A stretch of DNA of 64,000 bases, taken from the NCBI GenBank assembly GCA_950295325.1, contig OX485804.1, positions 19,654,001-19,718,000 on the forward strand, given 5' to 3'. Below are positions 19,744-51,141 of the stretch, piece by piece. The position numbers were made by a program, and so were the translations under genes. Position 1 is the stretch's first letter. Each line of letters starts with the position of its first letter. Below the pieces are notes generated by a model. That model was not told the DNA's origin, ran no database searches, and was given only the letters and a program-made list of their open reading frames with translations. The DNA is from Polytrichum commune (Eukaryota > Streptophyta > Polytrichopsida > Polytrichales > Polytrichaceae).

Positions 19744-22424
19744 CTAGTCATCTCTATCACTGTCCATTCCCTGCCTGGCCTCTACATCTAAATATTCCAA
19801 CACACGCCTATCAACAGGACGAGCACGAGTAATAGGTGGAGATGGTGCGACCGCGAACTCATGGGCAAGCCCACCAGCATACAAAGGTAGTTCGAACGCC
19901 CGTGAAGGGCTTCGAAACATGTCCGGGTTGAGGACACGGATAGGGCTCTCCCGTGGAACTCTGCACACAAAGCAACATACTAGAATGCATAAGCTAAAGC
20001 AAGAAAAGAAATGAAAAAAAAACCAATGAAAGAGGTGCTAAGTTAGAAATCAGACTTACGCACACTTTCTGTGACGCCTCAGGAGCTTTTGCCGAGGTTC
20101 AGTAGAAGGGGGGTCCGGATGTGCGACAACGGGTTCGGCCGGAGGTACAGAGTCCCGCATAGGCAGTAGGACGGCCTCGAAGATCTCCGAGTCTCGCTCG
20201 AGCGCCACAATGTGGCGCTCAGCCATACGACACGCAGTGATGGATGCACCTAAATGAAAAGAAATTGAGTGAGGTAGAGAAAAAAATTAAAAATGCAAAA
20301 GCAAGGAATGAAACTCAAAGACAAAGTATAGGAGGGCAAAGAGAAACCTGTGCCACATTGCCAATCCATGACAATGTCGTGCTTCCTCGTGAGCGTCTGG
20401 ATAACAATGCTTAAGAATACCATGCTCTTCTCTCGAGCCCCTCTCCATGGCACCTTGCCATCCTTCATGAGCTGGCTCTCCTCATCCGTGAAATTGTGGA
20501 GAAGGGAATCCTTCTCCAATGAGAAGCCCAACTTCGAATAGTCCTCCGCCTCGTAAACGGAGAGAGTGGAGCCGAGGGGCACAAGAACCTTGATGAAGAA
20601 GCGTTTTGTCTACAAAGAAAATTGCATAGTTAGTGACAAAAAGAAAAATGTACAACTTGAAGTAAATGAAGAGGAGGAGAAGAAATACTTACAAACATCT
20701 TGGGATCTTGTGCGGACGTAAGGTGAAGATCATTCACGCCCCACCAATCCCTGGCGATAGTAAAGTGACATTCCAAGGCCCAATCGCGAATGTCGTCGTG
20801 CATCTTGGGGGCATCGGGGTGCATGATGACGAGGACACCATTGTCATGGAGGTTGTCCTCTGCGAAAGTAAAGACATCATCAAAGAAACTCGGACCCCGG
20901 CGGTTCCACGCTAGAATGTCGGATGGCGAAGTCGAGATGGCGGGCACCGGGGGATTGTCCGGTACATCGACAAGGAGAAGGTCGATACCGGTATGGGACT
21001 TGGGATTCCTGTTAAGGCGAGTCCGACCGACACCAACCTGTAGAGCAAAGAAGAAGGTTGAGAAGAGAAGAGGAATGCTTCACAAGATAGAAATGAATGC
21101 AAGAATGAAAAAAGAAGTGGACTCCTACCTTGACAAGGAATTCTTCGATGCGAAGGTAGGCCGCTTGGTGGGAGTTGGTCTTCGTGTAGTGGTCCATGAG
21201 CACTCCGATGTCTACATTCTCAATGAGACTGTAGGTAGAAGCAGTCTCAGAGGATGTAGCACTCGTTGCTGCTGCGAATGCCTTCCTCTTGCGAGTCAAA
21301 AAGGGGGCAGTGGCTGTGCTGTGAGAAGGAGCGGGGGCATGCAAGGCAAGAGGGAGGGATGGGCTACCTACAAAGGTGGCAGCAGGTGCAGCGGAAGCCT
21401 CGGCGGCGGCCTTCGTAGCAGAACGAGTAGACACGGTGGCTTGGGAAGCTTGAGTACCCGAGACCGCCTTCACCTTCTTGCTTTTGATTTCCTTAAGAAC
21501 CTTCAATGCCTTCGTAGTGGTCACCGACTCCTCGGGGACCACGGCCTCGTGAAAGACAACATCAGCGGGTGCCTCAGCATTCAAAGAGGTGAACAAATGA
21601 ACCTCCGAGGGAGGAACGAACCCCTTCGAACAGTCCAAATACCACCTTGCATGCTTGAGGTGAGCAAATGGGTAAACATCGTGCTCGTCAGTGTACATGA
21701 AATTCAGGGAGGAGTCCAGAACCCACTCCTCGACATAGACCGGTAGAAAGGAGGCAGAAAGAGCTTCTTTCGGAATAAGCTCGTGATAGATGTACCTAAA
21801 GCAAACGACATGGGAAAAAATGAGAGAGGTTCGAGTGTTGCAAAGAAAATGAAGGACAAGTGGAGAGGAGGAAGAAATACCTATAAAGGACACGGTGAAT
21901 GATCTTGATACCATCTTCAAACTCAGTGAGGTTCGTGCCCTTGAGGAACTTCGTGTTTGACTTCTCCTCAAAGTAATGCGGGAAGGCGTGGTCCCAGAGA
22001 AGGATCCTCCATCCATCCACGAACTTTGGTGGACGTAACACACCCCCTTGCACATCCCAATTGATGGCGCGACCAAGGCTAGCCTCTAAGGACTTGAACT
22101 CCAAATCAACCCTGTCCTCCAACTGTAGTCATAGAATGAAAAACAAGAAATGAGGATAGACAACCGTAGAGAAAACAATCAATCCAAAGGAGGGGAGAGA
22201 TTCACCTGAGCCCAGAAAGAGGCCTTATGAAGCCAGGATTCGAGGACCCTCTCCTTAAGGGGCACAATGGAAGGGAATTTGTTGCCGGTTCGGACAGTCA
22301 TGGTGGAATTCCACCAACGGAGCCACTTCGCCTTGAAATGACACGGGACATGAGTGTTGGCCACCTTAGAAAGCTTCTCGATGGTCATGTCCGGGACCGT
22401 GTTAACCGAGAAGTGCCGATTGAT
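19744..22424 (-). pseudogene. Outer-element ParB/methyltransferase gene, 3' half (methyltransferase-like domain)
   Basis: Continuation of the gene at 51141-49742. Exons: 22424-~22207, ~22122-21885, ~21795-21135, 21037-20693, 20609-20348, 20249-20060 and 19960-19744, with phased GT/AG junctions. The domain order suits a permuted beta-class amino-methyltransferase. A motif-IV-like strand LLLVDVPDNPP comes first, then GVLVIMHPD, then PWRGAREKS, then the AdoMet-binding motif as DIVMDWQCGTG followed by ALERDSEIF. Beta-class enzymes methylate adenine-N6 or cytosine-N4 in DNA. The canonical DPPY/DPPW tetrad is altered here (DVPD), so catalysis is doubtful. A low-complexity Ala/Ser/Lys linker lies near 21300-21500. 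The inner giant element sits in the intron just upstream of 22424. Confidence 0.72.
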
Positions 22425-22949
22425 CTAGATAACACTATATTCGTTAATCGGAGACTTTTGAAAGTCTCAAAATAAAATATGCCCATAGTTTGGGATGCCA
22501 ATATTGTGGGCATATGGAATGTTGGGAACATCAAGAACATGACAATTTAAAAATTTGCACGTAAAGAATATTCATAATACTAAAAATAGAAAATTGCAAT
22601 TATAATGAAAACGTGAACTCCATGTGGAAAATAACAAGCGAATCTAAAAAACAAATGGTTTATGTCATTATAGAGTTTGGGGTGCGCATCCCATAAGTAA
22701 GGTTCTTATGGTTTTGGATGGCACATCCCAAACGTATACCACAATGGAGTGTGACAAGTCTACTAAGTCTATTAAAAACCAAGACTACTAAGCACTAATG
22801 TTTTTTCCCGCCGTTAACTTTCACCTATGTTATGTTTACCCATCTCCATCTTCCGCTTCATATTCATTCTCGGCGTCATTTTCCGCAGCTGCAATACGTG
22901 CCAAGTTGTCTTTGGCAAAATCTATATGTTTTTGGGGGATGGTCATTAC

Positions 22950-25900
22950 TTATGTGTTGGAACCTTTGCGCGGCTTCCAAGCACAAAGTATAGTATCCGT
23001 GTTTATCCAAACCGGTGTGTACGCTGAGTCCACTGTCCACTTAAAATTCTTTTTGGTGTTCCAACCTAAATAAGTGCGGAGCACGTTCTGGTCTTTAGTG
23101 CTTGGACGACAATATTCCACCTCAATTTGACGAAAGTTGGGGCTAGTTCGAACAAAATTGGGTGAAGACAATGCTTTTACCAACCAAATTGGCTTGGGAT
23201 GCTCCTCATCCCCTGCTCGTACGAGGACCAAATACCCTTCATGGCAATCAACACCTACACGAAACGACGGTGCCAGTCGATTGCGGGCAGGGCCAACGTA
23301 ATGCTCGTCCATTGCGAACTCTTCACGAACGTCTCCATTGCTGAAAAATATAGTATCCGACTCGACAACCGTCAAACGACTTTGTGGCCAAAATCCTTGT
23401 GTCAAAGTCGTACGGGTGTCGCCACCAAGTGTCATCAAGGCTGAGCGAATGCGATCCCAATACGCGATCAACGGTTCATGGGTATCTCTAACACGTCTTG
23501 TGATGTCCTCCTCGCACAACTCTTTCCAATATTCAATGAATCCGGATATGCCTCTGATGATTTCCGGCCCATTCCTCATGGGTTCGGGTTTGCAAGGCTT
23601 TGGTTCCCCATCCGGGACCAAACATTTCCCATCATTGTCTTGACGCCATACGAGTATACCATCATCCAGGCCCCAATTAGGAGATGTGCACAAAAGCTTG
23701 AATTGCATGGCCGGGAGACCATTGTCCCTCATATAAAATCGGAATTGTTGTGCTTTGGTATGCCCCACCAAACGGTCCCCTCCCTTCAACATGTATGGCT
23801 TGATGAAGGCCTTGAAATCTGGTACTTCCTCAATCAAGTGCGGAATTACTGGCATATGGTCCAAATCCATATACGATTTCATAAGAAGAGGTATGGTTGG
23901 AAAATCTTCTTCATGCAACTTCATGCTCCACCGTCCGAATGATGCATCAATGTCGTCGTGTGTATGTCCCACCATCAAGAAAGACACAAACACCTCCTTG
24001 AAGATTCCTTTCGCCACGAGCAATGACCAAAAACAAAATACGTATCGACATTTGTTGTCCTTCGCACAATTATCAAGTTGAACGTGGAGAGTTGGAGGCA
24101 ATGGTTTTGCACAAATGGGTTCTCCGGGTGGTTCTGGCAATGACGACATACAAACCGCCTTCCCCGCAAGCACTGCCTCATAAAGGGATGTGGTTCCACA
24201 ACCATCAAAAAGTGCACGGGAAGAATGTACCGGTGGCTTCTCAAGATCGCGCAACAGTTTTGCAAATGAACCCACCGTGTGGTTAGCATCCCCAGGGTAA
24301 AAATCCAAACCATAATGGGCATACTTTACGTCCCCATGGCCGTGGGCAATCATATCTGGAAAAAACAAACGATGCGTGACCAAAATAATCAAAAAACCAC
24401 TAAACGGATGTATGATTTTGGACATTTGCCAAACACACCCAAGAAAATTGGATAGACTTTAAACACGTAGTTGTGATTTCATACAAACCTGTGACAGCTA
24501 CGGGCAACTTGAAGAGACCATCCGTGGCCTTTATTTTGCGTGCATAACAAGGGCATGCGGTTTTGGCGTGGTCCATTTTATCATGGATGACTGTTAGAAC
24601 CTCTGTGGGCCTCATTATGGATAGACCACGATTCTTATAGTAATCTTGACGGTGTGCCTCTTGATTGTTGACATGCTCAATATATTTTTTCTAGTGTCTG
24701 GAATGAGATTCAGTGCCTATGGGGTGGGCGTCTCGAAGACCTTTGTATTTTTCACACGTCGTACATCTAGCGAACTTGTCCCCGGGTCTTTTCAGAATGT
24801 ATTCCGCAAACTGCTGGTTTTTAATCACACTCAACTTGGACAAAGAAATGGGCCCACATCCCGCTATGCGACCCACTTCATTGATGTCCGTTAAGATGTT
24901 CTTCCATTTTGTGCCCGTGGGCAACACCATTTGAACAACCTTCTCCCCTGACGACAATGTCCTCGTCTTGTGGGGCATTGCATCGGCCAATGGCACTATG
25001 ATGGTGGATAGTGTCGCGGACGCTTGCAGTGTAGCCTCCCTAGGTTTCTTTGTGCCCGAGTTGCCATGAAATCGGGAGCGGCGACCCAACGATGAATACT
25101 TTCGAAACCTATAAAAGTCAGCCTTGGAGACGGCGTGGATAGTATACCACGTTGTACAACACACATCAACATTCTCAAGTGTCACCACCTTATGCCCATG
25201 GGTATCAAGGTGCAAATTTCTGTGGACCTCGAGTTTCTTAGCCGACCTCATACGAAAATCCGCAAGCCACATCTCTTGACGCAGAGATCTAATTTTCTCC
25301 CGCGGGAAAAATTGGCAACATTTCCTCGCGCAACAATCCTTGCCGGACACTAGACGGATAGATTCGTCCCCCAAAAGCCGATCCCGTCGACGCTCCTTAT
25401 CTCCGCGAGGCACACGGTTTGAATCATATCTACGGAGGCCTTTGCGAGGACGTGTTGTGGCCAACAAAGCTAATTGTGTTTGCTTATGCTGCCGCTCATG
25501 ATCCCACAAACTCACTTCCTCATGTAGAACTTGACGAAGCAGCCATCGACGCAAGGAAAATCTCCATGTCACCGGGACCTCTACCTGAAGCAAAGAGTTC
25601 AAGATGCACACGCCAACATCATCGAGACCTAGGGCGTTGGCATCGACACAATCACGGGGATTGGAGTTTCTACATATGCCATCTGCCACCGGGACACCAA
25701 CCTCGTTGAGTAGAACGACATCAAGGCCAACCCATTGCTCCCTCCCGAAACCGGCACACAACGGAATGTCATCGTGGTCATCTCCGGAATGCAGAGATTG
25801 TTCGTGGACTTCCAAAGATTCATGGGAGGATGTATCCACAAACACCCCCCTCACGTTTGGCACACCATTACTATCTGCCGACGGGGAAGACAGTTCACAT

Positions 25901-25965
25901 TCAGCATCGGATGACGATGCATACGTCGACAACTCCAATGAACTATCACCCACATGCAACGCCAT
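22950..25965 (-). pseudogene. Candidate transposase of the inner element (DUF7869-like, RNase-H-like landmarks)
   Basis: Two exons, about 25965-24489 and 24355-22950; the intron has GT/AG sites and the phases match. It resembles uncharacterised eukaryotic proteins that I recall as DUF7869. N-terminal part: acidic leader, a Cys-rich segment CCARKCCQFF, then VCCTTWYTIHAVSKADF. Middle: a Cys pair (CTTC), then IHDKMDHAKTACP. C-terminal exon: MIAHGHGD, LHVQLDNCAKDNK and FLMVGHTHDDIDASF. The spaced D (DKMD), DN (LDNC) and H/D (GHTHDDID) fit an RNase-H-like transposase core; that is inference. A TAG at 24691-24693 interrupts the frame; coding resumes at once (KKYIEHVNNQEAHRQDYY), so this copy is dead unless suppressed. 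The start is the ATG before ALHVGDSS; an upstream in-frame start also exists. Confidence 0.6.
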
Positions 25966-26286
25966 ACCGCCTAGACCAACCACCAGAAAATGATCAACCC
26001 AACCTCCACCGCAATGCATACAAGAGAGGATAGAATATATGTGGAGATAAATGGCCCAAAATTGACAAACAAATTTTGGTGCACCATTGGAGAACCTCAC
26101 GCACAAAGACGAACGCGCGTCCCAAAAAAATGTTTTAAGCATACGTCTAGGTTGTTCACTAATGTAAACAATACATGGACAAAGAGGAGAACAATCGTTA
26201 GTCGTCCAGGAGGGCCCTGTTGTTCGGACCACCGCCTGTCCCCATACAACCGACGACGAAATCAGAAATCCGAGAACGCCACATGT

Positions 26287-27540
26287 ATTTACGAACGCGC
26301 GTTCGTGACCTCAGTAACTTCTCCATGTGCATCCGGCGGCCTTCGAGATCCCTCATCTGAGAGCACCCTCAGGAATATCGGTTTTGTAGGTCAAAGTACC
26401 ATGTTGACTTAGGAACCTGCGCGATATACTATCACAAGAGAACACTTGTCCATACGCACAAAAGTAGTAAATCTGCAGATGATGCCTGAATCAACTCCAA
26501 CAATATTTTGAACACTGAGCACCTCCATATTGTGAATTTGATTATGTTGACTTTTGCGTACCTACCCATTTACGAATGGACGTTCGTAAATGGGTGCGAC
26601 CCCGTGTTCACATCCTTCACGGACGAGCGATGAGCATATTTTTCTTGCTAATCTGTGTTCGTAAATTACTGCCATACTGATGTGCATGAATGAAGATGTG
26701 TTGCTGGATGCGTAGACAATAATGACATGTATTTACGAACGCACGTTCGTAAATTCCCGACCATCAGGTACCAATAGATACGGGTCAAATAAGTATGTAT
26801 GATCCTCGAAGGCATATTTACGAACGCACCTTCGTAAATGACTGTCATGGATTAAGTGCATGTCACTAACCATATGAGTACCTCAATCCAGAACATGCTC
26901 TCATGTGGGATTTACGAACGCATGTTCGTAAATTACCGACCATCAGGTACCAATAGACACGGGTCAAATATGTATGTATGAACCTCGAAGGCATATTTAC
27001 GAACGCACGTTCGTAAATAAATGCCATGGATGATGTGCATGTGACTATCCATGAGTAGCTCAATCCAAAACATGATTTCCTGTGGGATTTACGAACGCAC
27101 GTTCGTAAAATTACCGACCATCAGGTACCAATAGATACGGGTCAAATATGTATGTATGATCCTTGAAGGCATATTTACGAACGCACATTCGTAAATAATT
27201 GCCATGGATTATGTGCATGTGACTATCCATGAGTAGCTCAATCCAAAACATGCTCTCAGGTGGGATTTACGAACGCACGTTCGTAAATTACCGACCATCA
27301 GGTACCAATAGATAAGGATCAAATATATTTGCATGGTCCTCGAAGGCATATTTACGAACGTACGTTCGTAAATAACTGACATGGATTACGTGCATGTGAC
27401 TATCCATATGAGTAGCTCAATCCAGAACATGCTCTCATGTGGAATTTACGAACGCACGTTCGTAAATCCTTGCCATGTACATGTCCGAATCGTTTGTCTA
27501 AACCTGAAGCTCCTCATCTTTACGAACGTGCGTTCGTAAA
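26287..27540. repeat. Palindrome family I, upstream cluster (12 copies)
   Basis: About 12 copies of a 22-24-bp palindrome: half-site (A)TTTACGAACG, two variable bases, then its reverse complement. Copies lie near 26287, 26568, 26731, 26815, 26910, 26995, 27088, 27174, 27266, 27350, 27444 and 27519. From 26731 on they are embedded in a tandem unit of 178 bp holding two palindromes each. The cluster lies immediately upstream of the transposase-candidate gene. Sequence between palindromes is also conserved (GACCATCAGGTACCAATAGA; GTGCATGTGACTATCCATGA). Confidence 0.95.
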
Positions 27541-30500
27541 GTTCCGATATTTACGGCGGTATATGCGGTAGATACAGCCTGTACTGTACCTGGGTGGTGT
27601 AGGGTTGGCGCACACCAAATGGCTTGAGCGCGTTCGGTGAGGTCTGTAGAGCGCACACTTGCATGTGCCGCTGAAAAGACCTTTGTTGTGGGGGGAAGAG
27701 CTTTAAGTACTTCACCCCGCTGGTTCAAAATCCCTTGGATGCTCTTTAAAAAACGGATTCCCGCCGCCTTCTTTGACCTAACAATCTCCCATTCCATCCA
27801 TGCGGAATTATATAAATAGCACTGTCATGTATGGAACATGCCTTGCATGCACGCCAACATATTGAAAATATATATATCGGTTGCACACCTTAGTTGTGAC
27901 CAAGGTCTCATCAAAATATATGTATATACATATACATATATGTATATGTATATATGTATATATATATGTATATACATATATATATATATATATATACACA
28001 TAATGTCTAAATATGGAGATGGTTAACATTGAATATTTAATGATTTGCGACTAAGGTATGAAGTCCAAGTTAATTGACAATTGATGCCTAATAAAGTTAT
28101 GAATGTCGAAGTCATATATATATATATATACATATATACACATATACACACACACAATGAGGTCAGAGTGGCTAAGAACATGTTGCGGACACCCCTAAAA
28201 TTATAGGTATCATATGTTTCACATTAAAAAATGACCGTAATATGGTCACCAAGTGCATGAATACAACTAAAAAATCGGGTTAATCCATAATGGCTTGCAC
28301 TAGGGTAGATTGAGGACACTATGAACTAATTATACCTAATAATATATGTAAGTTAGGTCTTCTTTCAAATGATATCTAGGTGTGAAAATAAGGAATTAAA
28401 ATGGCATGAGTAAGAAGGATTAATCAATTTGTAATGCTGCATAGTATGATAGCGTAATGATCATTGAGACTTGAAACCATACTAGCTACCGTAACGTTGA
28501 ATCATAGTTACAATTATTATGTGTTTGACGTCCTATTGGAAATTGAATTTTCGTCCACTTGTTGTAAGGGTACGGATACACATTGGTTAAATGTTTATTA
28601 GATCATTGGTGATATTTATAGTTGAATGCATTATTCGATTGCTAGTTTAAGTTGACACATGATTAAATGAGTTGAGGTCCTATTGGAAATAGACTTTTAG
28701 GGTTTGGGGAAATGCACTATTAATTTGGAATGGTGCATACAATAGTATGTACTTACAATTAATATATGTTTTGCATCCTATGAGAAGGATGTGCATCATC
28801 ATAGCTTAAAGTGTTGATATAAATTGAAGTCTTAAGACATGCATGTTATTATAATAAGATCGTGGATTGTGTGATGAAATTTCACTCAGAACTATTAAGG
28901 TGAAAGAGGGAATATTTGAAATTTCACTTATCACCTAAACCAAAGTTTTATCTCAAATCTATTAATTTGGAATGTGAAAATGACAATTGGCATCATTATT
29001 AATTATTATAGTTGTTATGAACGGAACTAAGCATTCTCCATCCAACCAACATTGGTAGACCAATTTGACCTGCCCTCAGAAAACAACATGGCCACATATA
29101 AGAAAGGTTGGTAAGATAAAAAGATGCAGGGATGTAGGGTTTAGGGTTTGCGGTTAGGGGTTTAGGGTTAGGGTTTGGGGGTAGGGTTTAGGGGTTTAGG
29201 GTTTGTGAAAGTTGTGTATGTGATATTTGGGTTTAGGTTTTAGATTGTTACTAGGATACATTACACACACAAACAATATTGATTCCTCAAAAACCCTTGT
29301 AATTGCACTAACTTCATTCATCGCAAGCTCGTAGTTGATGCTAGCAAAATAGTTGACCACTCCAGAAATGCATTAGTTCAAGCTAACACCTAATATTGGA
29401 ACTTGAATTGACATCCTATCGTATAGCAACTCTGCGCAATCTCATATTATTATGAATTCCTTTTTGCATGTAATATTTATTTGAGGAACCATCGAATTAA
29501 TTGAAAGATATCTAGCTCTTACATAAACTATATTTTAAAACACCATATACATATCTTTTGGGGGTGGATTCTACATTGACAACCTAGGAAATGACATGCA
29601 TTGTTTATTACGAATTAACTGAGTATATTTTTCTTAAATATGTTTACAAGGAATCCAAATGTAGAGGTACTAAGGAAATAAAACGAGTAAAATTCATGTA
29701 TTTGAACTAAGCTTTTCAAGTTAATGCCCTAAACGCATCCATTACATATAAATATGTCAAAGCATGAGAATAACATGAAGGGTTCCAATATACAACCATC
29801 TCCCATCTCCCATCGCATCCCATCCCATCCCATCCCTTCCCATCACCTCCCATACCATCCCATCCCATCTCCCTCCCAGCCCTAGCCAGTGGAGTTGTGC
29901 CACGTGGCAGGTGCTGGGAAACCCTAGCGGCGCACCTACCTCCCCGCGCCCCTTCCTCTTCTCCTCATTTGTCATTTCGAGGAGAGGAGGAGAGGAGGAG
30001 CGGAGCGCTTAGAGAGCGAAGCTCTTGCTTTTTTTAGTCTTGAAGTTTTAAATTAGTTTTGTTGCAAGTTTTGAGAGATTTCAGATTGAGAGCTTGTGTG
30101 AAAGCTTTTGAGTTTGTGAAAGCTTTCATTGTGAAAGCTTGTGAGTTTGTGAAAGCTTTCAGTGTGAGAGTTTGTGAGTTTCAAAAGCTTGAGAGCTTGA
30201 GTAGGAAAGCTTCAGAGTTTCGGATTGAGAGCTTGAGGGTGATCTTTAGAAGCTTCAGAGTTTAAGGAAGCTTCAGAGTTGAAGCTTGAGAGTTTATGGA
30301 AGCTTCAGAAGTGAAGCTTGAGAGTTTAGGGAAGCTTGAGAGTTAAGGGTTTGCTTAAGAGTTCAGAAGCTTGAGAGCTACAAGCTTCTGAGTTTTGTGT
30401 ACATGGGAGTATACTAGGGTTTGTATATAAGCTGTGAAGGCTTGAGGTCTGCATTAGAGAGTTATCTGAGTGTGCATTTGAAAGGCAATTGAGTGTGTAG

Positions 30501-30860
30501 TTGTGAGGATTTCTGGAATTTTCATAAAGAGAAGAAGCAGGGTTTGAAGTCTGCAGCATTTCAATGTAATTTGTTATCCTTTCCAACTCCTCTCACATTC
30601 TGAAAATGTTGCTTCTTGAATTCAATTTGTTTTGTTACATGCAATGTGAATTATCACTTTCTTCTTCATGTTTCATTCTGCATCTCATTCTGCATCTCAA
30701 TTGCTTTATGATTCAAGATTTGCATCATTCTGACCAAAATTTTGCAGGCACGGCTGCAAGCAGAGTAGCTAATAAGTGAGTTATATACATATATGTATAT
30801 ATACGTATTCATATATATATGAATACATATATGTACGGACAGGGGATCCCAAAACCATCA
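27541..30860. other. Non-coding centre of the inner element with simple repeats
   Basis: No convincing gene. A weak open frame on the minus strand at 27797-27498 ends in a palindrome and is unassigned. The stretch holds TA/TATG microsatellites at 27900-27995, 28115-28160 and 30775-30835, a (CCCAT)n run at 29790-29875, and a degenerate GAAGCTTGAGAGTT-type repeat at 30060-30400. The divergent genes of the element flank it on both sides, so their promoters must lie at its edges. Confidence 0.7.
29136..29206 (+). repeat. Interstitial telomere-like repeats
   Basis: A run of GGGTTTAGGG, GGGTTAGGG and related variants matching the plant-type TTTAGGG telomere unit, degenerate and about 70 bp long. 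Confidence 0.8.
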
Positions 30861-30861
30861 C

Positions 30862-31545
30862 ATTTACGAACGCTCGTTTGTAAATGGACATACACTGCAT
30901 ACCCACCTCCATTTACGAACGCTCGTTCGTAAATGGACATACACTGCATACCCACCTCCATTTACGAACGCTCGTTCGTAAATGGACATACACTGCATAC
31001 CGAACCTCCATTTACGAACGTGCGTTCGTAAATACGCATTCCACGTTCTTTGAAATGATCTATATTTACGAACGCACGTTCGTAAATATACTCAAAATAT
31101 CACTCAGATGGAACCTTAACTTTAATATGAACCTCTACGAATATCTAAAGAACAAATATAAATTTGTGAACACCAATAAAACAAATCACATGTACTTACG
31201 AAAGATAAATCAACCAAATGTCCGACAAGATAGACCAAATGGACAAACTTACGAACGCACGTTCGTAAATAAAACCAAATCTATAAAACCTATATCTTTT
31301 ACGAACGATCGTTCGTAAAAATAACCAAATATATTACAAATACATTCATGACGAGTAGTCTCTTTGATCTTCATATCTTTTACGAACGCTCGTTCGTAAA
31401 CTCAATACTAAAAATTTATATGATCTTGCAACCCCTCATTTACGAACGAACGTTCGTAAATATAATTACATCAATTGCAAAGATGCATTAACACTGCGTA
31501 GTATGTGGGATATGCATGTCATTTACGAACGTTCGTTCGTAAAGT
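30862..31545. repeat. Palindrome family I, second upstream cluster (10 copies)
   Basis: Copies near 30862, 30911, 30960, 31009, 31065, 31249, 31298, 31378, 31438 and 31521. The first four are spaced 49 bp with the same spacer (ACATACACTGCATACC). The cluster ends 27 bp before the CAG/ATG at which the coding sequence of the plus-strand gene begins, so it occupies that gene's 5' untranslated region or promoter. The two central bases vary between copies (for example CT, GC, AT, AA). Confidence 0.95.
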
Positions 31546-42900: not shown

Positions 42901-43228
42901 GATCCATCCCCCGTTCCTCGGCCATGGTGACCGGTGAACTATTCAACAATCCCCTATCAACTTCTACCGGGAATTCTTCTCTAAGTGTGTAATTTTCCGA
43001 AGAAGTTTCACCACTCAATTTGGAGGGAGTGATCTCCTCTTCAAGTTGAGCTCCAAGTTCTAAGGTGTCTAGAATTGACCTAGTCCTAGGTTCGACGTTC
43101 AAACAACTCTCTATTCTAACATTATCTTGTTCTAATCTATCACTGATTTTAGAGGACCGCCTCTTTCGAGTAGATTTCTCTAGTCCTACTATCAAACTTG
43201 GTTTTTGTGAGCGAGTCCTACCTTGCAT
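36989..43228 (-). CDS. gypsy-2 gag-pol polyprotein, 2079 residues
   Basis: Single open frame for a non-chromodomain Ty3/gypsy polyprotein. Order (approximate residues): Pro-rich N terminus with an IPP repeat (about 110-125); gag domain (150-300); CCHC knuckle CVQCGQPGHTRQFC (about 430) and a second Cys-rich knuckle; aspartic protease DGGSS (about 850); reverse transcriptase with VDYRKLNS (about 1276) and catalytic box FVDD (about 1371); RNase H with YCDAS (about 1516); integrase HHCC finger (about 1730-1775) and D, D, E residues in IDYVG, SDRGTHF and ERVNG (about 1799-1894). The C terminus (about 2020-2079) lacks an obvious chromodomain. It replicates the element through an RNA intermediate. 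No frame damage is seen. Confidence 0.95.
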   Translation of the reverse strand: MQGRTRSQKPSLIVGLEKSTRKRRSSKISDRLEQDNVRIESCLNVEPRTRSILDTLELGAQLEEEITPSKLSGETSSENYTLREEFPVEVDRGLLNSSPVTMAEERGMDPPPIPPIPPIPPIPPIDPLVRPRGLPIVVPQNLAAMDMPSHLPKFYGTKDEDPSRHMERYIERLASFLITDPGYWLVWFPTTLEGEAYEWYRDHAEGHFRGWEQLQREFLNEFRPEVGQSTALRALSSLKQGREEEISAYIRRFDLVCTRFVGTMLNDDTLKQFFIQGFFKSGTIRGVLERNPLTLADAKRAARDIENLDKDHERLWRREDELIPQFIPIRPRVVAVEPAKYENQIPYAIVDTGPRPLAVREPAPLLALPAPRTDPHLEEVERRLGASQLGFQEAMIKQMQSLTDQMSLMIRSQQPGPPPPVESGRHSSGLWCVQCGQPGHTRQFCRSGQNRDQRGNGNPPQQNQRGQAPPHYGNGSNRGPQPRGQGGQNLEKKEFHPFCGRWHAQGQCWSEGQEFNCSNCGGSHPSDTCRQPDKIINVPYPVANPQQQARDNMRGARPQGVPANELRPPNLYYDHSNARQTFHPPPGLQTTTGYIPIQNRQGVPPNGSNGRQAPPTDPGPSNSQDVRFMDGVLEATCDDMLPLPTRIGEEQSQWPPHTNAITYELVKGKGVVEEAPALAVTTRARRGNAPLEVGIGEQGNYSSDEEINLSELDRVARRATKDVKRENIILQDRERTNAVHDLDNSDVGEWEGPGVPVDEFDVVGNSKVERSTGYDLWADLSTLKADITFGQLLEISPTARKTLKEGMPVHKRMRKVKAKIAARIQSQGGRDVKAIEIEVVIVDKVVPNVLVDGGSSLNILPEDTMKKLGLGLTGPSPLVINMANQSSTTPLGMIKDCRMTTGGEEYLVTFHVIKMHSNKDTFPILLGRPWLRMANAMVNWGGPKPSITYGPEGNRVIVSIGSLEGWMKKEMYLPLEKEIDDLNENEIGKALVGVVHPEGQRVVIDSGSGSLGPNFYNYGDNGDYAQWLREYPESEVDVMVTFHQVGLGSEFPSVSLGEGSLLEPCEVLTEEEWVSGGLTPWVDDVEEGEVSLIHVDGTQEEDVIIESSKLEEPLHFKTTSTGIVVGQDVKDYPNVPSDWYRNKEEQAHVSEADWRYVDVKLKNGKTRQMKMGSKLGEKEVREYSNLVDEFSDTFAWSYDELKGIPREMVEHRIPLIPGARPIRQKERRMNPQLQLLVKAELERLLKAGFIKPVEITDWVSPMVLVKKKNGKLRVCVDYRKLNSCTQKDHFPLPFITLLLEEVGGHSRYTFMDGYAGYNQISIALQDIHKTAFTTPWGTFVWVVMPFGLCNAPATFQRLVMYIFTDLLFKSMTVFVDDFSTQRNVDDHLHCVREALVRCRKMRLALNPDKTFLGVNKGVLLGYVVSEKGREPDPDKIAAISDLATPTNSKGISKLLGHVGWYRELIPNFSKIAVPITHLLKKDVKFEWTDACQKAFEELRDRLSTYPVLIPPNWGKPFHVYCDASNVAIGSALCQATGEKEKDQPIAYASKQLTPAERNYSTTERECLAMVFSVKKFRHYLMCNPVVFFVDHMAIKYLINKAELSGRLARWVLLLEEFDYTVEYKPGRMHLQADHLSRLSEEIGKNPVNDMLVDDSLFVVTSTPEWYAGIVEFLTTHKLPKEWTKEERRKVRVNSRQFVVVGHRLFRRGSDGILRRCVSKTEVEAILIACHDSACGGHFSGQLTGQKILRAGYFWPTLFKDAHDYVRKCDACQRYARDDLRMEMPLHVSLPLIPFEKWGIDYVGEVHPQSSKGMKYIVVATEYLTKWAEAKAVKTDTAEHAATFMYENIISRFGVPKILVSDRGTHFLNDLIREMTEKFKIDHRKTTPYHPQTNGQTERVNGILVSILRKTVIDSKRDWDTKLTAALWAYRTTYKVTTRATPFSLVYGLEATLPIEYEVESLRVAVSTRLTKSQSLRNRLTDLEALDEGRRMAAQHIEAIQRRRKITFDKRHKRRALTPGMMVMIQDARKLEFPAKFNAVWLGPYLVYEVFPNNSIQLETLNGELFPTRTSGSRCKEYRA

Positions 43229-44138
43229 TCCATAAGAATCGATCGACCCTCACTTGACCACACATAATCCTAGCAATTCCCCTCTTAATATTTTCACTTG
43301 TCTTGGTGTGGTTATAATTTTTTTAGGAGGTGAGGAAAAGAACCTGCAAGCCCACTTAGGTGAAAGAATCCCAATAGGTGATAGGCATGTTCATGTTAAT
43401 TTTTTGGTTAAGTCGGAGCATCACCTCCGCACCTTCCCGCAAATTAACACTCACCACAATACCGATTGTGAGGGGGTGACCTTCCGAGTAGATTATGTTA
43501 AAAGTCGAGGCTTCACCCTTCAACTTCTCACACCATCTACAATTCGGGAATTACCCTCTACAACGGATAACAACAATCACGAGTACAAAAGGCATTCCTT
43601 AATTAGTTAATGAGTTCACTTTGAAGAAATAAACATACCTTGAGCAATCGCATCCCCTTGTGAGTTAGCACTCCCCTCAATCGTGACTCAATGTAACAAC
43701 ACCATAAACTTTGTGAAATATTAATTTAATCTAGAGCATGAAATGACAACTCCCAAAACTTTGAGACTCACCCCGAGGTGAGTGTCAAAGTTCAATGTCC
43801 TAAGGTGAATTTACCCTCTAATGTTTTAATGAGCTACTCGGTTATAGGTTCCTTTTAAGTTCTTAGCAAATCCCCAAAAAGGTTGAGGACGTACCTTCGC
43901 CGCGCTCCTTCCTCAAAAATGAATTTGCGTAATTGACAATGCAATTCATTCCAAGGAATAGTTGAAATACAATGAATTCAAATGTAACCCAAAGAGAGAA
44001 TACTTACCGAGTTTCGGGTGCTCCTTCCCTTCTCTCAAGTTTGTGTCTCCAATTTTTCCTAGTTGCCTCCAAGTCTCCTAGTCGCCTCCAAGTCTTGTAA
44101 CTACCTTCCGCTTCGCTCCCGGCAGACGCACCAATTAT
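43229..44138 (-). mobile_element. gypsy-2 leader with primer binding site
   Basis: Non-coding leader between the 5' LTR and gag. On the minus strand just inside the LTR is TGGTGCGTCTGCCGGGAG, starting three bases after TAAT and beginning TGG as primer binding sites do. The complement would end in ACGCACCA, possibly a tRNA-Arg; I am unsure of the tRNA. Confidence 0.65.
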
Positions 44139-45967
44139 GTGAGGCCAAACCCCCCACCCTTAAGCGTCCGTAGTCTGAGTAGTGGGTTTGGGCTCACATT
44201 CCTCCGCGGTATTGGATTTGGACTTGGATGAGTCCATAGTGCAAGGTTCACCCTTCAAGTGGTCTTGGATTTAACTTTGGTCTTTGCTTCCTTTGTCTTG
44301 CCATCGCGAGAGTGTTCCACATTCTCCATTAAGTTGTGCACGTGGTTTATTTTTAAAGAGAGGATGCAAGTGTTAAAAAAAACACTATTCTCTATAGTCA
44401 ATCTCAAATACATTTACTTGTGAAAGCCACACATAACACTAACTAGCATAATGTAACTAACTACTTGTCTATGAGCTAATTAGGTAGGCTATCTACTAAG
44501 CTCCTTCATGAACCCATCTCTTTACTTTCTAATTACATAAACCTAGCTCCTTCATAAACCCAGCTCCTTCATAAACCCAGCTTCTTAGCTTCTAACTAAA
44601 CAAACCCAGCTCCTTCATAAACCCAGCTCCTTCATGAACCCAGCTCCTTAGCTTCTAACTAAACAAACCCAGCTCCTTCATAAACCCAGCTCTTTACTTT
44701 CTAACTAAACAAACCCAGCTCCTTTATAAACCCAGCTCCTTCATGAACCCACAACTTTGTAGTTGTAATCCCCAACTACCTCACTAATTATTCAAGCCCT
44801 TAACTAATCTTCCTACCTAATTTCCCTAATTCTACTAACAACCCCTTTCTAATCACACAATTCTTCTCTAATCCTAAAATCCTAAAATCCTAGAGAGGAG
44901 AGGGGGAGAGAGAATTTCCTAACTTCACTAAGACTAACTAATCCACACAAGTATATTTTTGCACTCATCACAACATCAAGTGCTCAACTCTTAAATATGG
45001 AACTTGCAACCACGTGTATTCAAAACATGAACTTTAAGTACCACAAATTGGAATCATGAATTAACTTTAAAATCCTTCACGTCAACACTAATTCTACCAA
45101 GAGGTCAAGCCCTCTTCAAGGCTAACAAGCCTTGGCTCTCAAACTAAAAACTAAGCACACACATGTGCTCCAATATGGCTTCCCACACCCACACTTATAA
45201 CTCGTGGGGTGCCTTGGAGCACAAAGGAAAGAGAGGATGAGTGAGGGAAGAATGAGGGATTATATAGTAAGCTTGAGGGGGTGAGCACCCTCAAGGCTCA
45301 CGATAAGCCCTTGAGATTTCCTCCTACTTAGTAGGCGCCAATCCTATCTTCTAAGCCTTCCTCCCTCAAATGATCAACAAGGATCCTAATTCGAACATTT
45401 AACTAGCCTTGGCTTTCTACCTACCACACTTTACCAAACTTGGGATGCTTCAACCCAAACTTAGCCTCCTTCGCTTTCCGCCGCCATAACTTTCTCCCCT
45501 TACTTTCCCAAATCGTCGCTCACCACTTAATTCAAACCACGATGCTTAACTCGTGATTTGATTGGTGCTTTGAGAATTTGCTTATCCTCCACCTTGCATT
45601 CTTCCTTGGGCCTTCCCCATTAAGTGGCCATGATGAGGTGGTCCACTTGTGCGCTCCATGTGATCCTCCATTCATCCCAATTCGAATGCACTTGCCTCTT
45701 GAGTCACTTTGGTTGTCTCCATCCATTTGTACTAGCCTACTCACTAACTACTCAATCCAAGTTCTCCTTACCTATCCTCATTCACTCAAATCCTTCCGAA
45801 GGTAAAAACACAATAACAACTCACATCCTAGCCTCTTACAACATGGTACTTCTAAGACTAACATTTCACTCTTTTTATATTTTTGTGAAGTAACATGCTA
45901 CTTCAAAGTGCATCAACTAACGTTTCAAGGGTCTAAGACTAAATGTGGGCACCCTTTTGGGCTCACA
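44139..45967 (-). repeat. gypsy-2 right (5') LTR
   Basis: Nearly identical to 35098-36927 (one difference seen is CGTAGTCTGAG against CGTAGTCCGAG, plus one base of length). The transcription start and polyadenylation signals of the element should lie here on the minus strand; I could not place a TATA box with confidence. Confidence 0.95.
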
Positions 45968-48150
45968 CCAAGCTCGAGCAAAAAATGAAGGAGGACATGG
46001 CGAAGGCGGCAGAGGAGAATGCCAAGAAAATGTTCGCAATTCAGGAGGAGCTGAGGCAGTCCAACGAGAAGACGGACGCCATCCTCGCCATGCTCCAGCG
46101 TATGCAGAGCTTCTCGGCGCCCCCCCAGCCGGCCTACCCCTTCCCTGGAGGATACCCCTCCCAATCCCCTCCACCAGGCATGTTCACCGGAGGGCCTTCC
46201 CGCCAGCAGGCGCCCCACCCTACGCCTGTTGGCACCCCTCCACCCCCAGAGGTTCCCTCGACCACCTCCCACGATGCTGTGGCTGCGGCCATCCAGGAGG
46301 ACGAGGATTTACGAACGCGCGTTCGTGAATCTTCAGGTCCTCCAGTCCTCACCCCTCCCCCTTCAAGGGTAGGACTGCCATCATACACCGATGCGTCGTC
46401 TTTCACCGTCGTCCCCAGGGTAGTAGACAGACATGGCGATGACTCTGCGCGACACACTGACATGGTCATTGTGGAGGACACGCAGGGGAGCCCCAATGAC
46501 GCACCAGGGGTGCAAGGGATGGACGTGGAAGAAACCCATGCGGCGTGGATGGAGGATGTCAGGATGGACGCGCTCGACCTGGGCGCCGAGGAAGAAAACG
46601 CGCTGCGCATCCAGGCGACACAGGCATCTCAACCGGAGCGTGAGGCAGAGGCCATGGAGACAGAGGCGGCTGCAGCTGTGGAGGTTACGAACGCGCGTTC
46701 GTTAATCGTTGAGGATGGACCTGCTGCTCGGTCCAGCGCCGCTGCCCCTCCCCCCGATGACGAGGTAACTCTCCTCTGAGAATACCATTTTTTTACGAAC
46801 GCGCGTTCGTAACCTCTCTAACATCGCGATGTTTTTCTCTTCATCGACATCCAGTGGCCTTGCGAGAGCCCTCTTCAGCGGTCCCCCTTAGGGTCGAACA
46901 GTTTTGTAGGACACGGCATTATTTTGCCTTAGGAAAATGTGATAGACTATCACGTGAGAAATGTAAATATTCAACGGATTAATATATGAGCCTATGTTAT
47001 CTGCATCGCGTTGCTTCAAATTCTCTGCCCTCAACCCCTTCTCGTATATTGTATATGTTGATGCGATTATGTTCATTCTTGCATACCCACCTCATTCGCG
47101 AACGCTCGTTCGTGAAAGGGTGCGACCCACTGTCCACCTCATTCGCGAACGACCGCTCGTAAATGTACGTGTAGCCGCGCTTACGAACGAGCGCTCGTAA
47201 ATGATGCGCACCGCCCCCGCAACCTTCATTCACGAACGCTCGTTCGCAAGTGTGCCCTTGAGCACATTTTCCTTGCACTCTCCTCACTTCCTCGTCTTTC
47301 CCCATAATGCACCGTCTTCATTTTCTACGCAAAATTTCATTATTGGATCATAGAATTAAACTAGTCGAGTTGTTCATCACAGGACCCCCTGGAGATAGGT
47401 CGCAACCCCTCGACCAGTGGACCTCCCACCCGGCACAAACCTTTCATCGTTTTTGACCTCAACGGGGTGTTGTGTCACACCCAACACATCCCAAGGGTCC
47501 CCACGCGTCCCTTTCGTCACCCCGACGAAAGGGACTACGACGGCGAGCTCGACACCCTCATTAACCGCAAGGCTGTCCGCGCCCGTCCCGGCTTGCGTGA
47601 CTTCCTTCGCGAGGTGGTCGAGTTCGCTCACGTCATTGTGTGGAGCTCCATGGTCATGGAGAACACGGAGCCCATCGTCCACTTCTTGTTCCGCGATCTC
47701 CCGAGCCCGTGCCTCGTCCTCGGCCAAGAGGACTACGACGAGCTGCTCGACGAGAAAGGTCAACCGGTGCCCAAGTTTGGCGGTCGGGGCGGAGGACAAC
47801 AGTTCCTCAAGGTCCTCCGCTCGAGACTCTGGCGAGGCGTCCCCCGTCTGCAAGGGACGCCGCACGGGTGGTGGCCGACTCCAGAGAACACCGTCCTCAT
47901 CGACGACAGCCCCACCAAGAGCGTCTTGAACCCCCCGGGAAACGTCATCTTCCCGGACACTTGGACCGGCGATAGGCAAGACACATTTTTGGTCGATAGG
48001 CTAGCCCCCTACCTTAGAAGGCTCGTGCTCCACGCCGGTAGCATCCCATTTTTTGTTAGGTCCAACCCCTTCGGCAATGCGGCACTTAGCCCCCGCGATA
48101 ATGTATTCAAGAGCATCATGAGGCTCGCCAAACTCAATAAATTGATTTGA
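45968..48150 (+). pseudogene. Inner-element big gene, 3' part (exons 3b-4) with FCP1-like HAD domain
   Basis: Exon 3 resumes after gypsy-2 (45973-46764) with LEQKMKEDMAKAAEE, a coiled-coil stretch, then Pro-rich and acidic regions. Exon 4 (47383-48150) joins in phase 0 after a 618-bp intron. It encodes an FCP1/NIF-type HAD phosphatase domain: FIVFDLNGVLCHT (nucleophile Asp present, the +2 acid replaced by Asn), VIVWSSM and LIDDSPTKS. HAD enzymes of this type dephosphorylate phospho-Ser, for example in the RNA polymerase II tail. The DLN variant may weaken activity. With gypsy-2 removed on paper the four exons give about 1607 residues. In this copy the gene is broken by gypsy-2. Confidence 0.75.
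46307..47250. repeat. Palindrome family I in exon 3 and intron 3 of the big gene
   Basis: Two copies lie inside coding sequence: about 46307-46330 (translated within DLRTRVRES) and about 46683-46705 (translated within EVTNARSLI). About five lie in the intron 46765-47382: near 46793, 47096, 47147, 47178 and 47228. Several have diverged (CATTCGCGAACG halves). A further worn copy sits at about 48506-48525. Confidence 0.9.
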
Positions 48151-48285
48151 AATGCCTCCTTGTCTTTGCTTGTATCATGTGGTTCACATTTACTAATGCT
48201 TGCTTCGTTTTTGGATGTCTTTTGTTGTTGTGATTGTTGTTGTTCTTGTTCTTGCCCATAGTCTGCCCCCATATGCGACGCCCCT

Positions 48286-49233
48286 GTGGTCGACGTCCCT
48301 TCCCGTCCCCTCTCGCCCCCTGCCTCCCCTTCCCGCGACGTCACGGACTTCCAAATGCCATCCCTCTACCAGTTCTCGGCGGTGGACGCGGCCTCGGCCG
48401 TGGATTACTCCCGCGACATCGGCATTGACGACGGCGTCGTCAACAGCCCGCCCCCCGCACTTGTCGCCCACGCCTACGCCCCGTCGCCCTCCCCCCTCTC
48501 CAAGGAGAAACGGACGCTCGTTCGTTTGGGGCACCTCTCGCCCTCTAAGGACGACGCCGTCGCTCGTCGCGGGCCAAGCCGCCGGCGTCTCCGCATGGAA
48601 GGCCCCCGTTGCCACACCTCCCCCGCCGATTCCGTTCCTCCCCCCGCAACGTCCTCCGCCATCGTGAGCCCTCCACGCCTCGACTCCCCCCCACCACTCA
48701 CCAATACAATAGTTCCATCGGCTCCGGATGCTACCGTCGACGCCCCCCTCGTTCCCACCGTTCCCCGCATGGACGTCCCCAAAGCCAAGGTGCCCTCCTC
48801 AACCCTAAACCCCTTTCCCGCTTTTGCTTCCCTTGTCTTCCGTTTGCGTGCCGTTCTCTTTACGAGCGCCCATCCCAAACCGCCCTCATTATTTTCCCCA
48901 CTCCATTCCTATTCTTATCTTCCTATGACGTTGTTTCGCAGGTGCCTACCCGCTCGCTTGGTGCCCGGCCCTCCTCCACGTCCTCCTTGGATAGGCACGC
49001 CCTCAAGGCCGCATCTTCCGAGTCCGATCGTTGTCTGGCCCTCCGGAGAAGCGCAAGACGTTCCCTTTCGCAAACACCCTCGTATTCTACTTATAATACC
49101 ACCTCTTACAATTCGGGAGCGCGTCCTGAAACATGCAAGAACGACACATATTCCTGTCCAGGCAACACACAAGGATGCAGTCGTGGGCCTGAGATTTTTA
49201 GAGCCATGGAGGCCGCCAAAAAAAAGGACTTAG
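48286..49233 (+). CDS. Hypothetical Pro/Ser-rich open frame downstream of the HAD exon
   Basis: Open frame rich in Pro, Ser and Ala with no recognised domain. An acceptor-like CCCATAG precedes it at about 48260, so it could be a further exon of the big gene or part of its 3' untranslated region. It contains a worn family-I palindrome near 48506. Overlapping frames in the same GC-rich stretch are equally long, so coding status is uncertain. Confidence 0.25.
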   Translation: MVDVPSRPLSPPASPSRDVTDFQMPSLYQFSAVDAASAVDYSRDIGIDDGVVNSPPPALVAHAYAPSPSPLSKEKRTLVRLGHLSPSKDDAVARRGPSRRRLRMEGPRCHTSPADSVPPPATSSAIVSPPRLDSPPPLTNTIVPSAPDATVDAPLVPTVPRMDVPKAKVPSSTLNPFPAFASLVFRLRAVLFTSAHPKPPSLFSPLHSYSYLPMTLFRRCLPARLVPGPPPRPPWIGTPSRPHLPSPIVVWPSGEAQDVPFRKHPRILLIIPPLTIRERVLKHARTTHIPVQATHKDAVVGLRFLEPWRPPKKRT

Positions 49234-49741
49234 CCGCAAAAAAAAATAGTGGGTCGCACTAGTGTGACGTCTAGAAGCATACTAGTGGGACGGACTCCCT
49301 AAATGGGCTTAGGTGTAGAACATATTTAAGTGCTTACTTTCTATGCTATTCCAAGTTACTCAAGACATTGATGGTATTTCCATTATAATTGTATTTCAAT
49401 CCCAATTAATTCATTCAACTTCCATTCATTCTTCGCATCTTCCTTTCCATTCATAACGAGTTGTCATTTCATACGCAACTATTCTCATGTATGCCTCACA
49501 TTTTTGTTCACTTCCATGCCTTTATGTATAATAATAGTAGCATACCATTATACATATGGGATTTTTAGTCGTCATTACTGATCCAATTTTGAAATGTGCA
49601 TCCTTATATAGTCTCATAATCAACAAAAAGTCTCCAAATACCGAATATAGTGTTAGATGAGGAAATTGGAGGTGAGTTAGCAAAATCGAGAAGAAATCAC
49701 GAAGGACAAATCGAAGGAGAAGAGAAGATGAAGAGGAGCAC

Positions 49742-51141
49742 CTCATCAAAGAAGGCGTCGGTATTCTCGGAGTTGGCAACGGCCACATACTTCTCGAAGC
49801 TCTTGGAGCGAATGGACTTTCTGGCCTTCTCCTCAGCAAGTGTCATGGCCCCCCAAACACCGAGAGCGGTCCTCTGATCGGCCGGAGTCTCATCCTTGTA
49901 AGCTCTAGCTGCAGCGTCGGAGGCGGCGGAGATCTCTCTCTGGTTGCAAGCAAAGGTAAGCCAACGAAGAAGATGGAAATTGAAAGGAGAGAAATCAAAG
50001 TGTGGGGAAGTGATTACCTTGTAGAGAAAGGAGACGAAGACGTCGATGGTCAAGGGGTACCAAGTGTTGTGCTTCCTCTTGGCATTGATACAAGCCAAGT
50101 AGTCCTCCTTGGAAATGAGGTCCTTGAAGTCCTCCAACTCCAAGGTCCCAAAGTAGCGGATGCAGTGAAGCTTGGAGGGGAGGCTGGACTTGACGTGGTC
50201 GTTCTTGATAGACCTACAAAAAATTGAAGAAGACAAGATGAGAAGACACTCACAAACAAAGAATGAAGTAGCAAAGAATAGAGAGAGACATACCGATTCA
50301 CGTCGTTCATGGCATTCATGAGAACGCCACTATGCTTCCACGAATCCAAGGCAATACAATAGGGAGAGATATGCCACGCCTCTTCCGTAGGATGGAACCT
50401 GTTCATGTGGCGCCACCAAGCGGTCAACCGGTGGTTCCCCTCCCACACGTAGAACATCTTGCCCACAAAGTAGACAAGATCGGGGTCGGCGGCCATCCGT
50501 GCATCGAATCTTTCACTCTCAAGCTTCCACAACGGACTCTAGGTGGACGAGATGTCCTCCGTGACCTCCAAGATGTCGTCCTTGTTGTTGTAGATGGAAA
50601 CATAGAGAACACGGTCACCATCTCGGTACCCCGTAACGAATTCGTTCTCCAACCTCTGGACATCCAACTCGTTGATGGGCCGAACGAGTGGCAAATCCCG
50701 CAAGCAGCAGAAGGGGATGCAAAGTCGAGACTTCTCAAGAGGCTGAATGCGGAGGCGATTGATGACTGCCGTCAAATCTTGTTTCTGCTTCACTCAAAGA
50801 TTGACCTCACTCTCCTCGGGGTTAGCCGACTTGGGAGGTTCCTCGGGAAGTCTAGAGGGAGTCTACAAACATCCGATTCAATTTAGTACACACGAGAATA
50901 ACTCAACCACCGACTCTAAAGGAGGGCAGGTGCAAGAACGGAAGACATAAGTGTCTAAATCAACTACCTCCTGCATGTCGGTGTTCACCCGGTCAACTTG
51001 CTCGAGTTGTTCTGGAACAACCTCCTCAATATCCTCCAGCTCTTCGACGTTGTTCAAGTCCACAGCATCCTCCGCTTGCTCCTCCTCCACAGAGGGCTCC
51101 AAGACCACAAGATCATCGGAGAGATCCATTCCCTCCAACTC
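49742..51141 (-). pseudogene. Outer-element ParB/methyltransferase gene, 5' half (ParB-like domain)
   Basis: Exons 51141-50968, 50862-50294, 50213-50018 and 49939-49742, joined by 78-105-bp introns in matching phase. After an acidic N terminus comes a ParB/sulfiredoxin-like domain: RPINELDVQRLENEF, then FYVWEGNHRLTAWW, equivalent to the dGhHRlaA motif that binds nucleotide in ParB relatives. ParB proteins bind palindromic parS sites in bacteria. The protein continues in 22424-19744 after the intron that now holds the inner giant element. Two in-frame stops break it: TGA at about 50795 and TAG at about 50538. The first exon shown starts at an acceptor, so the true start lies upstream and was not found. 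Confidence 0.72.

Follow-up and report, generated by a model that had tools for sequence, protein, structure and literature searches.

Private palindrome arrays in two nested transposons of Polytrichum commune and a methyltransferase-related protein that may recognize them

How a transposon might label its own DNA is the question raised by a 64,000-nucleotide stretch of Polytrichum commune (GenBank assembly GCA_950295325.1, contig OX485804.1, positions 19,654,001 to 19,718,000), here called the window, in which one DNA transposon (the inner element) has inserted into another (the outer element). Each element carries a large gene, termed the auxiliary gene below, and a partner gene (Table 1). 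A reading made from the sequence alone had proposed that the two large proteins share one order of domains, ParB-like and then methyltransferase-like. The most informative feature of the locus, however, is a set of element-specific palindromes that are absent from that sequence-only reading. The explanation that we prefer, with a probability of roughly 0.45, is that a transposon-encoded pseudo-methyltransferase binds the palindromes of its own element and counters silencing, by analogy with the VANC proteins of VANDAL transposons in Arabidopsis.

With up to 3 mismatches allowed, the palindromes are confined to the two elements: the window has 16 sites in the outer element, 33 in the inner element, and 0 in its remaining 20.7 kb. 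The sites of both elements have the same design, which is a dyad with a 2-bp centre. The first eight outer sites are spaced at 64 bp, except for the gene-proximal copy, and a solo long terminal repeat (LTR) splits the array. Of the 33 inner sites, 22 are intergenic, two occur in each of two predicted introns, two lie in the exon part that follows the retrotransposon, and five are located beyond it. None is found in the DUF7869 open reading frames (ORFs), in exons 1, 2, or 3a, in the FCP1 ORF, or in the retrotransposon. Among 38 inner sites (up to 7 mismatches), mean column identity falls from 0.85 in the arms to 0.37 in the centre and 0.28 in the 30-bp flanks. Because the arms are conserved and the flanks are not, most inner sites are not recent duplicates of longer units. 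The inner core was seen 24 times, compared with a mean of 0 in shuffles of roughly equal dinucleotide content. A 15-bp half-site at position 6180 was set aside, because a hand estimate places it within chance for that comparison.

Genome searches used the 408-Mb assembly, which comprises 64 contigs, at least 7 of them 42-78 Mb long, and in which the window is C2:19654001-19718000. The perfect outer palindrome is present at 64 sites, and a reversed-pattern control gave 0. Of these 64 sites, 50 were listed; they fall into nine clusters, and every cluster accompanies one of the 11 close exon copies of the outer family, the two exon copies at C7:35.66 and C7:40.46 Mb being outside the reach of this list. 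Eight clusters are 2.8-9.1 kb from the exon, and the cluster in the window is 30 kb away because the inner element has inserted between the two. The perfect inner palindrome occurs at 2,909 sites (control 0). Of these, 86 were listed, and they all come from the initial 2.6 Mb of contig 1: three scored inner copies account for 53 of them, a cluster at C1:640-646 kb for 26, and other places for 7. The sides of this cluster contain a decayed FCP1 part (70% identity, E 9e-34) and a decayed version of the ORF adjoining DUF7869 (63% identity, E 2e-10); the flanking stretches lack any ORF of 120 codons. Judging from these stretches on either side of the middle 5 kb, the cluster may be a derivative that retains sites without genes. 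As far as sites were listed, then, each palindrome is confined to its own family.

Relatives of the outer gene have palindromes of their own, and the type changes from clade to clade in the loci read (loci are given L numbers). One type is GACCCTCTCGG-NN-CCGAGAGGGTC, whose centre is AA (read as TT from the opposite strand) or AT; a division into separate AA and TT types was rejected, because these are one site on either strand. A second type is CACCCTCTCGG-CT-CCGAGAGGGTG, and a third is GAGGCCTCGG-AT-CCGAGGCCTC, in which one base is changed in most L068 sites. L043 and L045 have imperfect dyads around CTCGG-AA-CCGAG. A CGG-NN-CCG core is common to all of these types, and at least five types exist within the outer gene family. 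In a tree of the exon that encodes the ParB-like motif (the ParB-motif exon), L067 and L068 are sisters (support 0.996) that share one palindrome type, L043 and L045 are sisters (0.83), and the window copy has its own type. A further palindrome, approximately CCCACGGGTGNNCACCCGTGGG, was observed in two clades (L039 at 242, 337, and 1627; L067 at 1394, 1464, and 1862), and a search of the window that allowed up to 3 mismatches gave none.

The outer gene comprises eleven predicted exons in the part read, and the inner element has inserted into one of its predicted introns. Both of its stop codons are in the 5' part, and the window copy is thus broken. Relatives of the gene have the same exons with recurring boundaries. 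Profile tests used a seven-member alignment of the outer protein and six relatives, from which introns were taken out by hand. One PHROG methyltransferase family matches 7/7 members at E up to 0.1 (best 1.3e-5), Pfam N6_N4_Mtase matches 3/7 (best E 7.5e-4, under the curated cut-off), and a PDB search with the alignment finds DpnA at E 0.011, ahead of an unrelated phosphatase (E 0.057). Comparison with two phage methylases by hhalign gives E values of 6.7e-5 and 2.1e-5 (probability 64 and 77%). A tblastn search with the 3' part, at E up to 1, yields 48 phage records, the best among the matches listed being 2e-4. Twenty were listed; the annotation is methylase or methyltransferase for 19 and missing for one. 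The profile and hhalign alignments cover the C-terminal motif I region; motif IV was placed by visual alignment. In beta-class N6/N4 amino-methyltransferases, motif I comes after motifs IV and X, close to the C terminus, and the outer type has this order. The methyltransferase-like domain that had been proposed for the outer protein is therefore upheld: its C-terminal half is related to the beta class, with scores that are mostly modest.

The altered DPPY site that had been noticed in the outer protein extends throughout its family. Among 32 loci, the catalytic [DNS]PP[YFW] is present in 0/28 readable copies; the position mostly reads DVPEN or DVPDN, with G, A, and K once each in the fourth place and NVPEN once. 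Motif I (CG.G) is kept in 23/26 readable loci. An altered catalytic motif beside a mostly kept motif I suggests, on these sequence grounds, a structural or sensing role for the pseudo-methyltransferase half. Because altered motifs are kept throughout the family, read-out, as proposed earlier, fits better than methylation.

The 5' part of the outer gene encodes the block KMF.VWEGNHRL.AW, which is identical in 7/7 sequences (alignment A3) and which we take to resemble ParB/sulfiredoxin motifs, with the pattern of a GxHR/GxxR-type phosphate motif. The arginine of GNHR is kept in 23/26 rows of a wider set, in which three rows repeat a locus and some are decayed. A survey of the ParB fold describes the Box II arginine (PMC12704722). 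No family in Pfam, including PF02195, matches the ParB-motif region of any of six members (0/6), NCBIfam gives no match for the region of one member, and PHROGs gives only weak families of unknown function (best E 0.086). ParB-motif alignments find nothing in PDB beyond a chance match of the first of them to a ricin chain (E 1.9), hhalign does not match the region to Escherichia coli YbdM (probability 0.27), and tblastn with the ParB-motif exon finds nothing in phages. Two single-sequence AlphaFold jobs have predicted local distance difference test scores of 36.5 and 37.4, too poor for a fold search. Of the ParB/sulfiredoxin-like domain suggested for the outer protein, what is left is the motif WEGNHRL.AW. 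In many otherwise open genome copies, the ParB-motif exon has one recurring TAG, and the in-frame stop that L046, L054, and L055 have close to where the match begins may be intron sequence.

The inner large protein is of another kind. Pfam NIF matches positions 47467-48150 with an E value of 2.9e-13, above the cut-off, and this confirms the FCP1-like HAD domain that had been proposed. Motif I of FCP1/NIF phosphatases is DxDx[TV], and the DLNGVL of the inner protein departs from it; phmmer with this domain finds no match in PDB at E up to 0.01. The inner ParB-like and methyltransferase-like parts were read by eye and match nothing in Pfam or NCBIfam, and the ParB-like motif reads IIDDQHSLEAS, without arginine. 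No similarity between the inner and outer large proteins is detectable by hhalign. Because neither a domain match nor such similarity is present, the supposed common domain order is unsupported; what passes these tests is the relationship of the outer protein to methyltransferases and, in the inner protein, the FCP1 domain. A tblastn search of phages with inner exon 1 gives a single hit at E 3, and viral contigs searched with both palindromes and inner exon 2 contain no relative, with four stretches that fit a peptide pattern.

As had been supposed, both genes are transposon-borne; they are multicopy and not single-copy host genes. The inner gene has 91 scored copies (of 1,098 candidates) with 84-100% identity, and the matched frame is without a stop in 60/91. 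Outer exon B3 has 149 other scored places that are 35-96% identical (150 scored of 673 candidates), and beyond ten close relatives the scored copies are 35-48% identical. The ratio of nonsynonymous to synonymous substitution rates (dN/dS) was summarized as medians in dS bins of 0.005-0.05, 0.05-0.3, 0.3-1, and above 1; these values are descriptive, because branches are shared among pairs and a few loci appear in more than one row. For the ParB-motif exon, the medians are 0.69, 0.28, 0.17, and 0.09 (16, 139, 102, and 21 pairs of 325). For exon B3, they are 0.58, 0.33, 0.20, and 0.30 (58, 14, 127, and 199 pairs of 406), the last bin being near saturation. Inner exon 1 has medians of 0.47 and 0.12 in the first two bins (3 and 3 pairs of 28). 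All three exons examined are under purifying selection, a pattern consistent with proteins that are kept functional in spreading lineages. On contig C4, approximately 41-59 Mb, many outer-type copies have stop codons (uncounted), and this is perhaps a poorly recombining region.

In the inner element, the DUF7869 gene is divergent from the large gene, and a scored DUF7869 copy (87/1,825 candidates were scored) is located upstream on the other strand within 40 kb in 62/91 inner copies, compared with 0.4 expected by uniform chance. The distance is 7.9-8.9 kb in 55 of these 62. The outer partner gene appears to be split by the second solo LTR, and the exon assigned to its first part has longer open frames in other copies, for example, 493 codons. 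Its last part has a Cys/His pattern that is presumably SWIM-like. In a search for a MULE transposase domain, four ORFs of 55956-61842, where the gene is interrupted, gave no Pfam match apart from one weak similarity to Endonuclease_7 (E 0.043). With 150/1,822 candidates scored, the outer partner lies upstream on the other strand within 50 kb at 9/11 close outer copies (chance 0.1) and at 71/150 places of the ParB-motif exon (chance 1.4); a downstream control, made for the outer partner only, gave 0 and 6, respectively. Partner copies without a nearby scored auxiliary gene are also among those listed. Judged from sequence, the DUF7869 gene and the SWIM-like gene are probably the mobilization genes of their elements.

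These traits of the palindromes, namely that they are private, change between clades, lie almost entirely outside recognized coding domains, and have arms that withstand drift, suggest that the element itself makes a protein that binds them. Because the site design is the same and the partner genes are different, the auxiliary protein is favoured as the binder. Under the preferred explanation, each element would be a DNA transposon with two divergent genes, a probable mobilization gene and a large auxiliary gene, in whose noncoding DNA a single private palindrome recurs many times. The auxiliary protein would bind the palindromes as a dimer, with one half-site per monomer and a 2-bp spacer, and, using the GNHR domain or a different one, would occupy many of them. 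The methyltransferase half of the outer protein would still fold, may hold S-adenosylmethionine (SAM), and would no longer methylate bases; it might be a scaffold or a cofactor-sensing switch. Dense loading could then mark the element as self, oppose host silencing, and keep its expression and mobility, as in the VANC analogy. Several observations weigh against this explanation. We infer, rather than observe, that the auxiliary and not the partner protein is the binder, and because the inner and outer auxiliary proteins share no detectable homology, the parallel may be one of layout only, which weakens this assignment. L039 (5.0 kb read) and L072 (1.8 kb read) show the gene-proximal site alone, the L072 array being 5.6 kb from the exon; L042 (the same place as L062) has very few sites in the stretch read, and L066 has none of its clade's type in the stretch read. 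The GNHR arginine is lost in 3/26 rows (L049, L051, and L053), and fixed-spacing arrays (64, 85, 128, and 139 bp) partly reflect tandem duplication. Finally, two of the 11 close outer copies depart from the pairing: in one the only partner lies on the same strand, and the other lacks a partner within 50 kb.

Alternately, the partner protein (DUF7869 or SWIM-like) might bind the palindromes as assembly or enhancer sites for transposition, and the auxiliary protein might do something else. CACTA elements have subterminal TnpA sites, which are many copies of a short motif, and in the elements described here many sites lie between two divergent genes that are paired across the genome. However, inner sites are also intronic and are missing towards the ends (22950-26232 and 48151-49654), and different partner genes accompany the same site design, so that this alternative appears somewhat improbable. 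Relationship to DpnA and to phage methylases, the CG.G of motif I in 23/26, and GATC in palindromes with an AT centre would suit an active outer methyltransferase that marks its own palindromes as self and tolerates a changed DPPY. This is unlikely, because none of the 28 readable copies has [DNS]PP[YFW] and their fourth position can be E, D, G, A, or K. Moreover, palindromes with AA/TT or CT centres lack GATC, and GATC methylation was therefore rejected as a general target. Arrays of 20-26-bp palindromes near a gene whose product has a GNHR-type motif (7/7 in A3 and 23/26 rows in the wider set) could also be parS-like sites, on which a ParB-fold protein would load and spread for copy maintenance or clustering; but neither profiles nor hhalign detect a ParB fold, chromosomal transposons do not need partition, and we regard this as very unlikely. 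Hardest to credit is that the palindromes are functionless satellite repeats carried as passengers. Regular tandem repeats do make up some arrays, but the conserved inner arms stand beside near-random flanks and centres, inner sites are present in both predicted introns, and the CGG-NN-CCG core is common across clades.

To our knowledge, self-labelling with private binding sites is known in transposons mainly from VANDAL elements. Private motif arrays that accompany an auxiliary protein are already known there. VANC binds short motifs arrayed in the introns and intergenic DNA of VANDAL21, and the arrays evolve with VANC (PMC5735166). The elements in the window likewise have an auxiliary gene and element-private arrays of short motifs in introns and other noncoding DNA, and in both systems each family has its own motifs, which evolve by tandem repetition. 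In contrast, the VANC21 motif is 9 bp in one orientation (PMC5735166), the palindromes here are 20-26 bp, and the outer protein is a methyltransferase relative. Transposons with DNA-methyltransferase-type domains are also represented by DIRS retrotransposons with Dam-like adenine methyltransferases and by other retrotransposons with cytosine methyltransferases; the available text describes no palindrome arrays in these retrotransposons (PMC5890265), and motif IV is altered in the outer family. Phage fusions of a ParB fold with an N6_N4 methyltransferase, described in the same survey (PMC12704722), resemble the combination proposed for mobile DNA here, but in the window the ParB part is without profile support, the genes belong to transposons and have introns, and motif IV is altered. 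The inner element resembles CACTA transposons in its ends (AA and then CACTA) and in its many short motif copies, but has DUF7869 instead of tnp2, a 4-bp rather than 3-bp duplication, and internal palindromes. No description of such elements was found in the titles and abstract openings listed, which for the larger searches were those of the top-ranked papers, with subscription journals mostly uncovered.

With at least 91 inner copies, 150 outer-type places, and at least five palindrome types, both coevolution of protein and site and anti-silencing are directly testable in one genome. The outer relatives also present a methyltransferase-type domain that is under selection despite an altered catalytic motif. 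A broader proposal, which is possible but doubtful, is that two unrelated transposon lineages independently evolved or exchanged a self-recognition module of one kind. In it, an enzyme-derived protein with altered active sites would load on private palindromes and coevolve with them in each clade, and a bound nucleotide or SAM would act as the switch that holds the element open against silencing. If real, such a shared module would add a new class to the known sequence-specific chromatin factors and would provide ready-made orthogonal protein-site pairs.

The nested pair of DNA transposons seen by the sequence-only reading is real, in that each element has a target duplication (9 bp outer, 4 bp inner), read in one copy of each, that in the window. 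CCAGTCCAG is present at 18937-18945 and 62297-62305, on either side of the outer element. A 9-bp target duplication is typical of Mutator-like elements, among which are the VANDALs, and the outer element has both this and terminal inverted repeats. The description of the elements as giant does not hold, because their own sequence is approximately 10.2 kb (outer) and 16.3 kb (inner) once later insertions are removed. The long inverted repeats at 51954-55004 and 58193-61032 were rejected as transposon ends: a TG start, a CA end, and 5-bp duplications identify them as solo LTRs within the outer element.

Table 1. Features of the nested elements (positions within the window)
Feature	Position	Strand	Remarks
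Outer transposon	18946-62296	.	Inverted ends GGGG...GCATGAGCGTAGAGCGTAGAGCG; 9-bp target duplication CCAGTCCAG
Outer gene, 3' part	19744-22424	-	Seven predicted exons without internal stop; motif IV-like DVPDN, motif X-like region, motif I DWQCGTG
Inner transposon	22431-49654	.	Ends AACACTATATTCG; 4-bp duplication AGAT
Inner DUF7869 gene, putative mobilization gene	22950-26232	-	Pfam PF25273, E 1.7e-39 for 22950-24425
Inner palindrome TTTACGAACGNNCGTTCGTAAA, 22 copies	26288-31543	.	Between divergent genes; up to 3 mismatches
Inner large gene, exons before the retrotransposon	31572-35097 (31572-32867, 32989-34314, 34456-35097)	+	Predicted
Ty3/gypsy-type LTR retrotransposon	35098-45972	.	CCAAG target duplication; interrupts coding exon of inner gene
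Remainder of split exon and following stretch	45973-47250	+	Two, then five palindromes
FCP1/NIF-like HAD domain	47385-48150	+	Motif I DLNGVL
Outer gene, 5' part	49742-51141	-	Four predicted exons; WEGNHRL.AW motif; two stop codons
Outer palindrome CAATCCCACGGATCCGTGGGATTG, first 8 of 16 copies	51231-51953	.	Up to 2 mismatches
Solo LTRs	51954-55004 and 58193-61032		TG...CA termini; 5-bp duplications ATCGG, GAGTG
Outer palindrome, other 8 copies	55039-55560	.	Beyond solo LTR
Outer partner gene, probable first part	57523-58197	+	Inferred; interrupted by solo LTR
Outer partner gene, last part	61135-61842	+	SWIM-like Cys/His pattern

Other features are located to the left of the outer element. A 39-bp tandem repeat occupies 18253-18945 in approximately 18 copies, and the outer element inserted within it. 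A CACTA-type tnp2 transposase with DUF4218 and DUF4216, adjoining a SET-domain ORF, is found at 7087-10528 (+) and 6034-6618 (+); the Pfam E values for tnp2, DUF4218, DUF4216, and SET are 5.2e-70, 2.7e-38, 3.5e-6, and 2.1e-10, that of DUF4216 being just under the cut-off. These tnp2 genes (7-10.5 kb) were rejected as a part of the outer element, because they lie outside it. A second gypsy-type element at 11108-18035 is approximately 77% identical to that at 35098-45972 and is truncated near 11708, the end point of a fragment of the solo-LTR family.

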